Positions 1 through 5,474 of a DNA stretch of 64,000 nt are shown piece after piece. Both the position numbers and the translations under genes were made by a program. The stretch covers positions 124,001-188,000 of the forward strand of contig NZ_CP018151.1 in NCBI RefSeq assembly GCF_001889265.1. Reading direction: 5' to 3'. Below the pieces are notes generated by a model. It was given only the letters and a program-made list of their open reading frames with translations. It had not been told where the DNA came from and made no database searches. Origin of the DNA: Microbacterium sp. 1.5R. GTDB taxonomy: Bacteria; Actinomycetota; Actinomycetes; Actinomycetales; Microbacteriaceae. The first letter of the stretch is position 1, and every line of letters begins with the position of its first letter.

Positions 1-33
1 CCTTCTGGAGATAAGGAGCGGGTCACCGATGTT

Positions 34-47
34 CTGATACATCGACT
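34..47 (-). promoter_or_regulatory. Candidate sigma-dependent promoter motif, left copy
   Basis: Read leftward this is AGTCGATGTATCAG. It matches 13 of 14 bases of AGTCCATGTATCAG upstream of the sigma-factor gene at 5461-5474. An A-rich block (GAAACTTTT, positions 52-60) lies upstream in the same orientation, like the -35 side of the other copy. It sits just past the CHAT stop codon and points out of the window, so it could drive a further gene to the left. The function is inferred from the repetition only. Confidence 0.45.
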
Positions 48-58
48 GGAGAAAAGTT

Positions 59-2488
59 TCAGAGTCCGCTTCCGTGGCACTGGAAAGGCGCGCTGAGGCC
101 TGTGGATTCGGATGCCGCGGCCAGCGCGTCCGCGGGTCTGGCACCGGTGGCCAGCTCGGAGTGCACGGCCCCGAGCAGCTCGCAGGCGACGTCGTCGGCG
201 ACCACGACAGGGGCGGCGATGACGCAGCCGGTGCCGGCGTGCAGCCAGACGCGCGTCATGCCCAGCGCCTCCTCGCCCCAGCGCACCGACGAGCGGCCGA
301 GTTCGCACGCCGAGAGCACGACGGTCTCGGGCGGGCGCGAGATCAGGTCGACGTCGTACCCGAACAGGGTGCCGTCGACGAGTTCGAACCCTGAGAACAG
401 CGGGTTGTCGACCGCATGACGACCGTGGGCGGCGATGTGCAGCACGTCGACCTGCTCGGCGAGCTCGGTGACGGCACTGACCCGCGCGCTGTCGCCGGTC
501 AGCATCCTGGCGCCTGCCCACGCTGCGGCGGCCCGGCGCACCTCCTCTTCGGCGCGCGCGACGCGGGGGCCGGTCGCGAAACCTGCCCGGGAGGCCTGTG
601 GCGGGCGGCGATCGGAGCCGCCGAGCAGGCGAGACACCGACGTCGCGATGGTGAACGGAGTTCCGCGCATTCCCGGGAGCATCGCCCACGGGATGCCGCC
701 CAGGATGCCGGGCACCGTCAGGGCCAGACGTGCCGCTCCTCCCGACGCCGCGCGCGCCGGTGCCAGGAGGGCCTCGTCGAGTCGTCGCAGTCTGTCGTCG
801 AGCGAACGCGCCACGACGTGCGCCATCGGCCCGCCGTGGGTCAGAGCCGCCACGTCGAGGTCGGCGCGGAGTCCGTCGAGCGCGGCCTCGATGCGCGGCA
901 GCGCCAGCTCGACGATCGACGAGCCGGATGTCGTCACGACGACGCACAGCAGCTCCTCGCGCGTGAAGACGTAGGCGAGGATCGCTGTGTCCTCGTCGAG
1001 TCGCGCTCGGGTCTCGGAGAGACCCAGGCGTTCGTGGCTCTCGCCGACGCCGGTCGACGACCACTGGCGGTCACGTACTCGATCCCGCAGCTCGCGCACC
1101 CGGGCATCCGTCGTCCAGTCCGACCCCGCGAGGTCGGCGCGCAGCATCCGCAGCTCGGCGAGGTCGGCCGACAGTTCGGCATCGTGCGGCGGGCGCACCG
1201 GTGCGACCTGCTGGCTGAGATGCCTGGCACGCTCGGACCACTCGAACAGCACCTCGGGATCGCGCGATCGCGCGGCCGCGGCGAGACCGGCGAACATCAG
1301 CTCGGTGCCGTGCATGGCCACCGACGCCTGCAGGTCGAGCGCTCCGAACGACTGCTGCCACGTGGTGAGCAGGTCGAGCCCCTCGGCGGCGGCCCGGCGA
1401 GCATCGGCATCCCTGCCCCGTGCGGCGGCACGCACCGCACGCACCTCGTGCGCGCGCAGACGCAGCGGCGTCGGGGCGTCAGGGGTGAGTCGGGGCAGGC
1501 GACCTCCGTCGGCCAGCCGAGCGGTAAGTGACACCGCAGCCGCTTCGGTGCGGAATCCTCCCCGGGTGAGCGCGTCCACCGTGCGAGAGAAGTCCTCGGC
1601 GGCCGGCGGCTTCTGAGGTCGGGTTCGCAGCTGCGCCTCCAGCCGCACCGCGTCGGCGCGGGCGGCCCAGCTCGCGCTTCCCAGGGTGGCGAAGCGACGG
1701 GATGCGGTCGCCGCGGCACGCTCGGCCGACGAGGCGTCGTGCCGCAGCAGCGATCGGGCGAGATGGAACTCGGCCTCACCTCGCGCCTGCCGCATCCGCT
1801 GTGCGCCGAATCGCACCGCGACCGTGCCGAGCAGTTCTTCGGCCTCGGTCGTGAGGCCGGCATCGCGCAGCACCTCGGCCCGATCGAGGTCGCTGATCGC
1901 GGCGGCGAGGTCGCTGGTCGCGGCGAGGATCGGACGCGATCGGGTCATCAGCCCGAGTGCGGTGACGAGGTCGCCGCCGAGCAGCGCGGCGTAGCCGAGA
2001 TTGTGGCGCGCTTCGGCCAGCGGCTCCTCGGCCCCGTGGGCCTCATAGGCCGCGATGGCCCGCTGCAGATCGGCCGTGCAGGCGTCGAGCCGGTGCCTCT
2101 GCATACTGACGATCGACCGGCTCATCAGGCAGTTGGCGCTCTCGATCGAGCCCTCGTCGAGGCCGTCTATCGCCCTGGTGAGGAACAGGTCGGCGTCGTC
2201 GAGCCGTCCGCCGTGCATGAGCAACGTGCCGAGTTGGCCGTTCGCGAGGGCGACTGTCTCGTCGCTGAGGCCCGGCCGTGACAGCGCTTCGCGCGACAGT
2301 CGCTCGGCTTCCACCGGCTGGCCCGTCTGAGCGAGCACGTAGGCCATGGTCCCGTCGATGCGGGCACGCAGATCGGCGTCGTCCGTGCGCGCCGATGCGG
2401 CGGTCAGCGCACGCCGCGCCTGGGCGAACCGTCGGGAGTTGGCTGCGTCGACGCCGCGCTGATGCAGCTCGAGAGCAGACAGGGGCAT
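59..2488 (-). CDS. TPR-CHAT caspase-like protease
   Basis: An 809-residue protein predicted to be cytosolic. Roughly the first 330 residues are helical, TPR-like repeats rich in Ala, Leu and Arg. The C-terminal third is a CHAT domain (caspase family, clan CD). The catalytic pair is visible: His688 in HIAAHGR and Cys728 in LSACELG, separated by the usual spacing. CHAT proteins are effector proteases in bacterial conflict systems, for example the TPR-CHAT protease of type III-E CRISPR, but no CRISPR genes are present here. It is the last gene of a leftward set after a sigma factor, a small Ig-like protein and a subtilase, 61 bp after the subtilase stop. A CATTCT hexamer ending 6 bp before the ATG may give it its own leaderless transcript. 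The domain call is firm, while substrate and trigger are unknown. Confidence 0.9.
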   Translation of the reverse strand: MPLSALELHQRGVDAANSRRFAQARRALTAASARTDDADLRARIDGTMAYVLAQTGQPVEAERLSREALSRPGLSDETVALANGQLGTLLMHGGRLDDADLFLTRAIDGLDEGSIESANCLMSRSIVSMQRHRLDACTADLQRAIAAYEAHGAEEPLAEARHNLGYAALLGGDLVTALGLMTRSRPILAATSDLAAAISDLDRAEVLRDAGLTTEAEELLGTVAVRFGAQRMRQARGEAEFHLARSLLRHDASSAERAAATASRRFATLGSASWAARADAVRLEAQLRTRPQKPPAAEDFSRTVDALTRGGFRTEAAAVSLTARLADGGRLPRLTPDAPTPLRLRAHEVRAVRAAARGRDADARRAAAEGLDLLTTWQQSFGALDLQASVAMHGTELMFAGLAAAARSRDPEVLFEWSERARHLSQQVAPVRPPHDAELSADLAELRMLRADLAGSDWTTDARVRELRDRVRDRQWSSTGVGESHERLGLSETRARLDEDTAILAYVFTREELLCVVVTTSGSSIVELALPRIEAALDGLRADLDVAALTHGGPMAHVVARSLDDRLRRLDEALLAPARAASGGAARLALTVPGILGGIPWAMLPGMRGTPFTIATSVSRLLGGSDRRPPQASRAGFATGPRVARAEEEVRRAAAAWAGARMLTGDSARVSAVTELAEQVDVLHIAAHGRHAVDNPLFSGFELVDGTLFGYDVDLISRPPETVVLSACELGRSSVRWGEEALGMTRVWLHAGTGCVIAAPVVVADDVACELLGAVHSELATGARPADALAAASESTGLSAPFQCHGSGL

Positions 2489-2549
2489 TGCACCAGAATG
2501 CCGGTATGTCTGGCCTCAGGGAAGGTGTGCTGTGATCCGACGCGCGCGG

Positions 2550-4124
2550 CTACCCTCCCGTCACGGGTGAAGGCAGGGTTTTGAGCACGGCGGAGACGGC
2601 CTTGGCCGCAGCATCCGCCGTGACGCCCTGTGCCGGCACGGAGCCCCACTGTGCCGCGATGCGCCCCGCGACATACGGAGCCGCGAACGACGTGCCGCTC
2701 CAGATCGAGAAGCCTCCGCGGTAGTCGTCCGGGTCGATCGTCTCGCGCCGCAGTCCGTCGACGTCCGCTCTGGTCGTCGCCTGCTCGCCTCCGACGAAGG
2801 CCGGTGACGTGCTCACGACGGCGGCGCCGGGGGCGTAGACCTGCACCCAGGGGCCGACGTTCGAGAACAGCGCGACCGACCGGCCCGACGGATTGAGAGC
2901 CCCGACCGACACATGCGGCGCAGCGTGATCACGGGAGATGCCGTTGTCGGCACCGGGCCACGGCCACAGCGATGCCGGGAACGACGGTCGGTCGATCGCG
3001 TCGTTGCCCGCCGAGCACACCACCACGCATCCCAGCTCTCGCGCCGCGGTGAGCAGCGCGTCGAGGGTCCGGCTGAACTGACCGTCGACCGGGGTCTCGT
3101 GGTAGTACCCGAGCGACAGGTTGAGCACGTCGATCGGATGCCCGGTCGACGGGTCCTCGCGGTGTCGCCGCAGCAGCTCGACGACCTGCGCGACGGTCGT
3201 CAGGAAGCTGCTCTCGTCGATCACGCCCAGTGCGCCGGCCATGCGGATCGACAGGATGTCGGCATCCGGCGCCGTCTGGCGGATGATGCCCGCGATGAAC
3301 GTGCCGTGCCCGGCGACGGCGTCGATCTCGCCGTCGAGCTGCCCGTAGAGATCCGGATAGACCTCGGGGTCTGCGTCGTCGGTGAGTCCGATCGGCATGC
3401 CGTCGATCTCGATGTGCCGGGTGACGATGTCGTCCGGCAGCCAGTCGTGCGCACCGCATCCCGTGTCGAGCACCGCCACCACCGGACGTCGGCCGCGCTT
3501 CGGGTCCGCCGTGCGCCGGGGAGCCGGTCCGAGCCAGGTCACCGGCTGGCGCGCGCCGCGCCCGGGCTCGAGGTAGTCGTCGCTGCCTCCGGCCCCTCCG
3601 CCCGCGCCGCGCACCGGGTTGGTGCGGCTGAACGGGTTGGTGCGGCTGAAGGGATTCGTTCGGCTGAACGGGTTGAGTCCGACGGGGTCGATCGACAGCA
3701 CATGCTCGAGGCTGGTTCGCGGCATCGACGTGCCGGAGCTGCGCCGCGCGCGCTGCAGCACGCGCCAGGCGTCCGGCGGCACCGGGGACTCGCCGCGGGT
3801 CGGCTCGTCGGGAGTGGTCAGGCGAGCGCGCAGGAACCCCGGCACGCCGGGGACCAGCGGATCAGCCGCGCGCAGAGCATCCGGCGAATCGATCTCGAGC
3901 ATCCAGCCGAACGAGCCGGCTGCATCGCGCAACTCGCGGATCTCCTCGTCGTACTCCTCCTGACCGTTCTCCTGATCCTGCGTGATCAGCAGCCGCTCCT
4001 GCAGATACGCGGTGGGGAACGCCCTGACGCCCTCGACGGGTTCGACCGACGGGTCCAGCGCCGTCCCCCGTCTGATCGATCCCTCGGCCCGGTCCTGCCA
4101 GCTCCACCCCTTGGGCTGCTCCAT
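2550..4124 (-). CDS. Intracellular S8 family serine peptidase (subtilase)
   Basis: A 524-residue subtilisin-fold protease. The catalytic triad is visible as Asp220 (VLDTG), His273 (GHGT) and Ser479 (SGTSFAAP), with oxyanion Asn374 in SAGN. There is no signal peptide or membrane segment, so it probably acts in the cytosol. Residues 1-145 resemble a non-catalytic prodomain, followed by three exact NPFSRT repeats (151-168) and a Gly-rich linker. The ATG at 4124 is chosen because AGGAGAGGA precedes it by about six bases. The longer open frame up to 4241 runs through a GC-rich hairpin repeat and has no ribosome site. It lies between the Ig-like/sigma pair and the CHAT protease, so two different proteases share one operon. 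Fold and triad are certain, while the role in a signalling or defence cascade is inferred. Confidence 0.92.
   Translation of the reverse strand: MEQPKGWSWQDRAEGSIRRGTALDPSVEPVEGVRAFPTAYLQERLLITQDQENGQEEYDEEIRELRDAAGSFGWMLEIDSPDALRAADPLVPGVPGFLRARLTTPDEPTRGESPVPPDAWRVLQRARRSSGTSMPRTSLEHVLSIDPVGLNPFSRTNPFSRTNPFSRTNPVRGAGGGAGGSDDYLEPGRGARQPVTWLGPAPRRTADPKRGRRPVVAVLDTGCGAHDWLPDDIVTRHIEIDGMPIGLTDDADPEVYPDLYGQLDGEIDAVAGHGTFIAGIIRQTAPDADILSIRMAGALGVIDESSFLTTVAQVVELLRRHREDPSTGHPIDVLNLSLGYYHETPVDGQFSRTLDALLTAARELGCVVVCSAGNDAIDRPSFPASLWPWPGADNGISRDHAAPHVSVGALNPSGRSVALFSNVGPWVQVYAPGAAVVSTSPAFVGGEQATTRADVDGLRRETIDPDDYRGGFSIWSGTSFAAPYVAGRIAAQWGSVPAQGVTADAAAKAVSAVLKTLPSPVTGG
3621..3674 (-). repeat. Three tandem 18-bp repeats encoding NPFSRT
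   Basis: Three consecutive 18-bp units encode NPFSRT three times in the linker between the N-terminal region and the catalytic domain of the subtilase. A fourth, incomplete NP follows. The units differ at a few third positions, so they are not a fresh duplication. The linker may be a processing site or docking motif (inferred). Confidence 0.85.
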
Positions 4125-4140
4125 CGTCGATCCTCTCCTC

Positions 4141-4304
4141 GCGGGCGGACCCGCGTCCTCTGCGGGATGAGCCCGCGTCCTGTGCGGGGGACCCCGCGGT
4201 GTGTGCGGGTCGGCCCGCTTCCGGTGAGTGAGGTCCTGCATGGTGCGGGAGTCGCCCAGCGGTGGTGTGCACGGGTCGCCCCGTCATGCGCGGGTCGCCC
4301 CGCG
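4141..4304 (-). repeat. Row of seven small GC hairpins in an operon gap
   Basis: The 185-bp gap between the Ig-like gene and the subtilase holds seven short inverted repeats of the form CGGG-N4-CCCG. They start near 4141, 4162, 4184, 4205, 4244, 4271 and 4289, mostly 19-27 bp apart. The rest of the operon is overlapping or tightly packed, so this gap is unusual. It could be a transcript-processing, attenuation or mRNA-stability element that sets protease output against the upstream genes (inferred). Confidence 0.6.
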
Positions 4305-4309
4305 GTGGA

Positions 4310-4792
4310 TCACAACTCGAACTGCGGCGTCGACAGGGTGCGCTCCTGGTCGCCGACCGTGGTGCTCAGGCGCACGCGGGTCAATCCGTCGGGCACGTCG
4401 TCGAACAGGAAGCGGCCGGTGTCGTTCGCGGTCGTCGTGCGGATGCTCTCGCCCTGAGCCAGTTCGATCGCACCCGAGATCGAGTCGACCCAGCCGTCGA
4501 CCCGGTGCGCACCGCTCGCCGTGCGCGTGACGTGCAGCAGGATGCTGGTCGTGCCGTCGCTGAACTGCAGGGTGAGCGCGTCGGCGTCGCCGCGAACGGC
4601 TCCGAGCGGTTCCTCGATGAGGGTGAGCAGCGCGTACTCCTCCGACAGCCCCTCGGCTGCCACAGCCGCGATCATGCGGTCGATGAGGGCGGCCGGCATC
4701 GGATCGACGTCACGCCAGAGCGAACGCAGCTGCGCGAACAGCTCGGCATCCTCATGGTTGTCGCCGCCGTTGGCGCGATCGTTCTCGCTCAT
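4310..4792 (-). CDS. Small acidic protein with Ig-like/carboxypeptidase-regulatory C-terminus
   Basis: A 160-residue protein of unknown function. The start MSENDRAN is fixed by GGAGGG seven bases upstream and by an ATGA overlap with the sigma-factor stop, so the two are translationally coupled. Residues 1-50 are helical (LWRDVDPMPAALIDRMI), a pattern seen in short cytoplasmic anti-sigma-like proteins. Residues 60-160 look like a beta-sandwich resembling carboxypeptidase-regulatory or Ig-like folds (IRTTTANDTGRFLFDDVPDG). There is no signal peptide, membrane span or zinc-binding HxxxCxxC motif. Position and size suggest a regulator or partner of the sigma factor and a possible substrate of the two downstream proteases. 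This role is inference only. Confidence 0.75.
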   Translation of the reverse strand: MSENDRANGGDNHEDAELFAQLRSLWRDVDPMPAALIDRMIAAVAAEGLSEEYALLTLIEEPLGAVRGDADALTLQFSDGTTSILLHVTRTASGAHRVDGWVDSISGAIELAQGESIRTTTANDTGRFLFDDVPDGLTRVRLSTTVGDQERTLSTPQFEL

Positions 4793-5424
4793 GAGCTGCC
4801 CTCCGTTCGTGGTGTCGGTGCGTCGAGCAGCTCGCGCAGCTTCGCGAGGCAGCGCTGGCGGGTGGGGCCGATGCTGCCGACCGGCATCGCGAGATCGGCG
4901 GCGAGGCGGGCGTAGTCCGGTCGCTCCTCGAAGGCGATCACTCGCAGCAGTCGCTGGCATCGGTCGGCGAGGAGGCGAACCGCTGCCCACAGCCGTCGCT
5001 TCTCGTCGCCGACGGTGGCGTGGTGCTCGGCCGACTGCTGCGTGGGAAGCAGTGCGTCGAGAGCATCCGACTCGGTCGTGTCGACCCTGTTCTGGGCCTT
5101 CCCGGCACGCCAGGCCTCGCGGCGAGCGGTGGTCGTCAGCCAGGCCGACACGGCTTTCGGATCACTGATCGAGCGGTGCCCGCGAACCAGCTGCAGCCAC
5201 GTGGTCTGGACGACGTCTTCGGCCAGTGTGCGGTCGAGTCCGTAGGCGCGCACGACATGCCAGAGCACAGGCGTCATCAGCCGCACGAGGTCGTCCATCG
5301 CGCGGCTCTCGCCGTCCCGCCATGCGTCGAAGAACTCGGCGGCACGCCTCCAGCGTGCTGCTCCGTCGTCCGGTGCAGGATCGAGGGCGGCGCCGTCGGG
5401 TGCGCCGTCGATCATGAGTCCCAT
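4789..5424 (-). CDS. ECF-like RNA polymerase sigma factor
   Basis: A 211-residue sigma-70 family protein. Region 2 (about residues 25-80) includes the segment RTLAEDVVQTTWLQLVRG, typical of ECF factors. Region 4 (about 145-200) carries a helix-turn-helix around YARLAADLAMPVGSIGPTRQRCL. The start is uncertain: ATG codons lie at 5424 and 5415. A longer frame starting at 5469 is unlikely because its first codons overlap the candidate -10 motif at 5461-5474. It is first in a leftward operon with the small Ig-like protein, subtilase and TPR-CHAT genes, and probably controls that operon and itself. The sigma identity is strong, the regulon is inferred. Confidence 0.85.
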   Translation of the reverse strand: MGLMIDGAPDGAALDPAPDDGAARWRRAAEFFDAWRDGESRAMDDLVRLMTPVLWHVVRAYGLDRTLAEDVVQTTWLQLVRGHRSISDPKAVSAWLTTTARREAWRAGKAQNRVDTTESDALDALLPTQQSAEHHATVGDEKRRLWAAVRLLADRCQRLLRVIAFEERPDYARLAADLAMPVGSIGPTRQRCLAKLRELLDAPTPRTEGSS

Positions 5425-5460
5425 TGTGATCACACCGGTAAGGAGCACGGCAAGAGGCTC

Positions 5461-5474
5461 CTGATACATGGACT
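5461..5474 (-). promoter_or_regulatory. Candidate autoregulated sigma promoter, right copy
   Basis: Read leftward this is AGTCCATGTATCAG, preceded by an A-rich block (CGAAAAAAC, about 5482-5490). The core GTATCAG and A-rich upstream element recur in the same orientation at 34-60. It lies about 35-50 bp before the sigma-factor start, the right place for an ECF-type promoter. Assignment to this sigma factor is inferred. Confidence 0.5.

Follow-up and report, generated by a model that had tools for sequence, protein, structure and literature searches.

Two described systems are close to the locus considered here. In type III-E CRISPR, the CASP system comprises a tetratricopeptide repeat (TPR)-CHAT protease, Csx29, together with Csx30 and a sigma factor, CASP-sigma, as set out in the accessible part of PMC10028731. 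The second is ECF54, a group of extracytoplasmic function (ECF) sigma factors whose conserved neighbours carry carboxypeptidase, subtilase and CHAT domains (PMC8999054, citing Huang 2015 and Casas-Pastor 2021); the portion of that paper available to us classes ECF54 under proteolysis, without an anti-sigma factor, proposes proteolytic control, and gives as reference the sigma factor of the actinobacterium Geodermatophilus amargosae (SFT86700.1). Here we analyse a gene set at the left edge of a 64,000-nucleotide stretch of Microbacterium sp. 1.5R (positions 124,001 to 188,000 of contig NZ_CP018151.1; hereafter the window), which encodes an ECF-type sigma factor (SIG), a small protein (SML), a subtilase of family S8 (S8) and a TPR-CHAT protease (CHAT). 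There is hardly any doubt that these four form one functional unit.

The neighbourhood described for ECF54 is also found here, and the locus fits the group by it, with one reservation: SML matches CarboxypepD_reg only at E 0.02, below the cut-off. Because PMC8999054, in the part available, describes such a neighbourhood, the gene set is not a discovery of this window. In a scan of the four proteins and two neighbours, SML matched no anti-sigma family. Our search of the open literature gave no relevant ECF54 paper beyond PMC8999054 and nothing on the CHAT-containing set, the two primary ECF54 papers lying outside that search. Relative to the literature found and to the portion of PMC8999054 at hand, whose ECF54 description contains none of them, the new features are the splitting of the set into two modules, a pair of promoter elements, a structured RNA, a linker arginine in SML and peptide repeats in S8.

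The resemblance to CASP lies in CHAT, which shares the Csx29 fold with its His and Cys; the differences are the extra subtilase and another presumed cleavage residue. A SIG profile compared with PDB sequences found generic ECF structures only, and a relation to CASP-sigma was not seen. The Cas7-11 effector consists of fused RAMP domains. This domain (PF03787) is absent from the window's genome in a search that was positive in 4 of 14 control genomes, and no CRISPR-like array lies in the 17 kb around the locus, which bears out a preliminary description of the window in which sigma factor, small protein and TPR-CHAT protease were said to occur together without CRISPR genes.

Three further comparisons are instructive. 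Separase, the enzyme that separates chromosomes in human cells, matches the CHAT model in its caspase fold at 9-14% identity; CHAT has candidate counterparts of the separase His-Gly, Cys and arginine-binding Asp, and may share its arginine preference. Another CHAT protein is DdvA of Myxococcus. By the title of its PDB entry (8rot), it is an anti-sigma factor that spans the membrane and contains a CHAT domain; unlike this membrane protein, the system described here has no clear membrane segment by hydropathy. The presence of a CHAT domain inside an anti-sigma factor suggests that CHAT folds have met sigma control more than once. The EACC2/TRADD-N system likewise combines a caspase-fold protease, a TPR protein and an ECF sigma neighbourhood, with proteolytic signalling proposed; in the part of its description used for comparison, the TPR protein is of the DUF1822 type and neither a subtilase nor SML is mentioned.

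Co-occurrence of the four genes

As the preliminary description had it, the genes are read leftwards: four minus-strand open reading frames, SIG at 4789..5433 from its likely start, SML (160 residues) at 4310..4792, S8 (524 residues from its ATG) at 2550..4124 and CHAT (809 residues) at 59..2488, the first two coupled by an ATGA overlap (4789-4792). None contained an internal stop on re-reading, and Pfam recognises Sigma70_r2 in SIG (E 6e-10), Peptidase_S8 in S8 (E 1.1e-24) and CHAT in CHAT (E 1.2e-28). The CHAT-family match is the only one in its genome, which is a single 3.62 Mb contig.

Among 249 species of the family, the window's own genome included, SML matches were found in 11. All ten other genomes with a genuine match carry SIG, SML, S8 and CHAT in this order, nine of them contiguously; in G106, S8 and CHAT are set apart by some 4 kb of genes that look unrelated (L016:5240-9360), with the four genes and the RNA kept. 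An extra 40-residue SML match in the same genome (L013) was spurious. Across the class, the SML profile matched 86 of 394 genomes, and the 71 regions fetched contain both SIG and SML in 68 cases, S8 in 57 and CHAT in 58; how the last two are ordered and oriented differs between regions. Since these regions had been chosen through SML, an entry from the sigma side was added, using the signature GSIGP[TIL]RxRC. The best 80 of at least 586 relatives' loci with this signature include SML in 68, CHAT in 54, S8 in 49 and all three in 44. Hosts of such loci are Motilibacter, Solirubrobacter, Dactylosporangium, Catellatospora, Lentzea, Terrabacter, Acidimicrobiia and others; the ECF54 reference organism is absent among these best 80.

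The set also holds together at a distance. Thirteen of the 71 regions have no local CHAT, and all 13 genomes carry CHAT elsewhere; with three more SML-containing genomes added, a CHAT orthologue was present in 16 of 16, with E values no higher than 1.8e-122; the one in G323 is divided between contigs. S8 adjoins the distant CHAT at 15 of the 16 places fetched, the contig of the sixteenth being cut off. Full-length CHAT was found in only 1 of 32 SML-less control genomes, most of which belong to the same family and order as the window (20 by profile, 12 by single-sequence search; 13 further genomes, picked as CHAT-negative, were left out). That genome, G497, has full-length CHAT at G497:C14:188221-192308 with a promoter element about 1.5 kb away and no recognised SML; because of the nearby element, it may hide a diverged SML. 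SIG-SML and S8-CHAT are thus two modules that occur together, and co-occurrence in trans is a stronger sign of joint function than neighbourhood alone. The co-occurrence of the four families that the preliminary description proposed to look for is seen as strong linkage, both in cis and in trans.

The SML linker and the two proteases

The closest named relatives of SML are from Microbacterium, and some relatives are named 'carboxypeptidase regulatory-like' in databases. The structural model of SML consists of a helical hairpin, a low-confidence linker and a beta sandwich. An earlier label of 'Ig-like' is fair, although weak, the matches to SdrD_B and CarboxypepD_reg (E about 0.02) falling below Pfam cut-offs. 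Compared with PDB sequences, SML gave no match at E <= 0.001 and four chance-like ones up to an E of 1, and no solved Csx30 appeared. The linker contains Arg67 (codon 4592..4594, minus strand, checked; R68 in the 161-residue translation used for alignments), which is invariant in 66 of 66 aligned sequences and in 68 of 68 in the loci reached through the sigma factor, and which precedes a small residue. We regard it as a candidate cleavage site. The alignments here and below comprise 66 SML (the window and 65 of 68 other matches), 41 of 58 CHAT, 41 of 57 S8 and 24 of 70 sigma sequences.

The active sites of both proteases, Asp220, His273 and Ser479 in S8 and His688 and Cys728 in CHAT, are where the preliminary description had placed them. 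The three S8 residues do not vary among the 41 S8 proteins aligned, nor do His688-Gly689, Cys728 and Asp765 (C+37) among the 41 CHAT proteins. The suggestion that neither protease is secreted is consistent with hydropathy, the sole check made; the top 19-residue mean is at most 1.4 in SIG, SML and S8, and 1.73 at CHAT residue 755, within the protease core. CHAT is helical over residues ~1-480, a part that resembles the peptide-binding protein LGN, and its model matches the Csx29 and separase caspase folds over ~490-809. Asp765 appears to lie near the site at which separase binds the P1 arginine (separase Asp2070/Asp2151). In G717 (G717:C1:1121131-1123586), the CHAT match is in four pieces with an internal TGA and is probably a decaying copy.

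Within the S8 gene, three NPFSRT hexapeptide repeats (3621..3674, minus strand) form a linker preceding the catalytic domain. Hexapeptide repeats stand right before the catalytic domain in 26 of the 41 aligned S8 proteins; of 118 further proteins belonging to the system, one has such repeats. As sites of arginine cleavage these repeats were ruled out, many lineages having no arginine there.

The promoter elements and the predicted RNA

Element 1, TGTATCAG-N14-GCTCC (5442..5468, minus strand), stands in front of SIG, and element 2, TGTATCAG-N14-GCTC (16..41, minus strand), 17 nt behind the CHAT stop; the strict form has three matches in the genome, two of them at this locus. Because element 1 directly precedes it, at a spacing that suggests a leaderless transcript, the in-frame GTG at 5433 is a likelier start for SIG than the ATG at 5424. 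A looser form (NGTATCA, 13-16 nt, SCTCY) matched 62 times within the 71 regions, which total 1.05 Mb, and never in the reversed sequence used as control, and a slightly wider form gave 67 against 3 in the 80 loci reached through the sigma signature. We hold with high confidence that this is a real promoter element. Where S8 forms a separate unit, the element can also precede it (L104, L107, L111). ECF factors are usually autoregulated. As this is so, and as the element is associated with these loci, SIG presumably uses it, including for its own transcription.

A genome-wide regulon was considered and rejected. In 49 genomes with the system, the pattern GTATCAGN{12,15}SCTCY has 159 matches against 95 for the backwards pattern, with at least one match in 47 of the 49, and 49 of the 159 fall inside the fetched loci. 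Since the remaining 110 compare with 95 backwards, and 31 SML-less genomes have 43 against 80, no regulon is claimed beyond the loci.

Behind element 2, in the loci of the window's genus that were read, there is no same-strand protein gene before the convergent neighbour. The element lies 14-73 nt behind the CHAT stop in 28 of 36 loci with CHAT, one locus being cut off before the CHAT end, and the next 110-150 nt would give a G+C-rich RNA with hairpins bearing CUGGGGA loops. CTGGGG occurs 41 times in 28 such RNAs, compared with 5.2 (sd 2.2) in dinucleotide shuffles. For the 13 of 28 RNAs that could be aligned, a structure with four helices and 22 pairs was derived: 86.5% of its cells are paired (22-53% when slid), and double changes occur in 20 cells, compared with 7.4 (sd 2.1) after shuffling. 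These scores are favoured by the derivation of the structure from the same 13, and one helix has no double changes. In the window, only the 5' end of the RNA is present (1..11, minus strand); it continues beyond, as part of a match at G000:C1:123896-124011. A structured RNA behind CHAT is very probable as a prediction.

The RNA is also tied to CHAT. When the 119 genomes of the genus were searched with a model built on the 13 RNAs, 18 had a match, one copy each. All 18 belong to the 61 genomes in which CHAT was matched, and none to the 58 CHAT-negative ones. Six of the 18 had not contributed to the model (G106, G411, G632, G636, G703 and G741), and in G411, G632, G636 and G741 it lies 1.5-10 kb from CHAT. 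No Rfam family reached its gathering score in eight regions; 6C RNA, considered as a partner for the G-rich loops, has no match in the window's genome. Because G-loop hairpins upstream of the sigma gene number only 27 versus 9 in 70 loci, we limit the RNA claim to the window's genus.

Outside the window's genus, what follows the second element is a gene for a small protein (L019-L021, L022-L023) or for response regulators (L089), these functions being assigned by eye. In L019:7229-7627 and L020:7373-7792 (minus strand), proteins of 132-139 residues behind the element, convergent to CHAT, have a common GFDCP..WDDD.SP stretch, and L023 (13438-13617) and a divergent open reading frame in L022 would encode 59-residue peptides (HPPLPxExPGGLPELI..DGxIYPA) driven from the element divergently from the sigma gene. 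Possible lineage-specific targets behind the element are a protein that looks papain-like by eye (L088:5128-5838, minus strand) and an 893-residue ATPase regulator, also by eye (L094:5097-7778, with an alike gene in L097). One family (L075-L086) has SIG-SML adjoining recurring genes for DUF5998, a CoA ligase-acetyltransferase, a phosphodiesterase and thymidine kinase. Some 400 nt upstream of its sigma gene, L075, L077, L078, L082 and L086 have a GTATCTG variant of the element, a short Arg-rich frame and GGGGGG stretches, and L084 has five G-loop hairpins within 600 nt; upstream stretches of this type may represent a relative of the RNA, here in a different family.

A possible sigma switch and its alternatives

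We suggest, tentatively, that the system is a CRISPR-free counterpart of Csx29-Csx30-sigma, that is, a sigma switch under protease control. We infer the following order of events: SML would hold SIG inactive through its N-terminal helical hairpin; a stimulus would engage the TPR half of CHAT; and the separase-like, presumably arginine-directed half would then cut SML after Arg67, separating the hairpin from the beta sandwich and freeing SIG. Once free, SIG would drive transcription of its operon and of a single neighbouring target from TGTATCAG-N14-GCTCY, the target being the structured RNA with CUGGGGA loops in the window's genus and small proteins, a peptidase or regulators elsewhere. S8 would likely act in a second step, by amplifying the response, clearing fragments or ending it. 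As to the single links, SML is somewhat likely to be the direct partner of SIG, and its cleavage by CHAT at Arg67 is possible but doubtful.

A number of observations weigh against this scheme. SML matches no anti-sigma family in domain scans, and its model has no solved-fold match at E <= 0.001 by Foldseek (best E 0.022). The linker arginine may be structural; in 2 of the 68 sequences reached through the sigma factor it precedes N or R instead of a small residue. Separase sites additionally carry an acidic P4, where most SML sequences have A, V or G. According to the part of PMC10028731 available, the cut that Csx29 makes in Csx30 falls between residues 427 and 429, within a C-terminal-domain loop. 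Of the best 80 sigma-signature loci, 11 have neither SML nor S8 nor CHAT. Only 20 of the 62 looser-element matches stand in front of SIG, about half of 70 SIG upstream regions have no element, and elsewhere in the genomes it shows no clear excess over its backwards control. Finally, the RNA model misses 43 of the 61 CHAT-positive genomes of the genus, the missed loci including alike but diverged RNAs (e.g., L015, L168 and L170).

What the proteases cut is the point on which the alternatives differ. They could keep the system off by degrading SIG itself, with SML as an adaptor or cofactor, as is proposed for ECF54 in the accessible part of PMC8999054; the lack of a known anti-sigma domain in SML fits this reading, but no partner is tied to SIG more tightly than SML (68 of 71 regions; 68 of the best 80 of at least 586 loci), and the constant linker arginine, taken with the separase-like nature of CHAT, suggests that SML is what is cut. 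We consider degradation of SIG unlikely. Alternatively, S8 could be the main effector, with CHAT acting on S8 rather than on SML and with the repeats either docking onto the TPR part or being cut to activate a zymogen. The persistence of the S8-CHAT pair when it is split from SIG-SML (15 of 16), the homogenised repeats before the catalytic domain in 26 of 41 S8 proteins and the LGN-like helical part of CHAT would all agree with this; the repeats are absent from 15 of the 41, however, and have no constant residue such as arginine, and we judge this role of S8 to be as improbable as degradation of SIG.

An antiviral or cell-death function, in which phage sensing activates CHAT or S8 to kill the cell and SIG merely boosts expression, is very unlikely: a TPR-CHAT protease does belong to type III-E CRISPR (PMC10028731, as far as available), S8 has partial IetS/subtilase similarity in PADLOC (best E 2.7e-8) and presence is patchy (in 61 of the 119 species that represent the genus), but PADLOC has no match for SIG, SML or CHAT, both split modules are kept, the neighbours resemble metabolism and transport by eye, and CHAT has one partial match among 50,697 phage records (24% of the query, E limit 1e-10) and one among 72,556 plasmid records (50%, in an 11.85 Mb record, E limit 1e-20), with none in either set covering 80% of the query. 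The preliminary description had offered proteolytic signalling or defence; the signalling unit is supported by linkage in cis and trans, the Csx29-like CHAT and the domains and linker arginine of SML, whereas defence finds little support in the PADLOC, phage and plasmid records.

To return to the protease-controlled sigma switch, a bolder version of it would be a widespread, CRISPR-independent 'bacterial separase' pathway, in which a separase/Csx29-like protease frees the sigma factor by a single cut at the invariant arginine bond of its partner. In Microbacterium, the freed factor would chiefly make a regulatory RNA whose repeated CUGGGGA loops pair with C-rich RNAs or capture a G-loop-binding protein. 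We consider this version rather unlikely.

In the literature found, control of a sigma factor by a TPR-CHAT protease has been described experimentally for type III-E CRISPR. The same TPR-CHAT-sigma logic appears to exist without CRISPR across much of Actinomycetota. The system offers a single-residue cleavage site that can be tested, an element suited to a reporter and an RNA as read-out. It could thereby make the proteolysis proposed for ECF54 experimentally accessible, and could bear on the origin of the CRISPR version.

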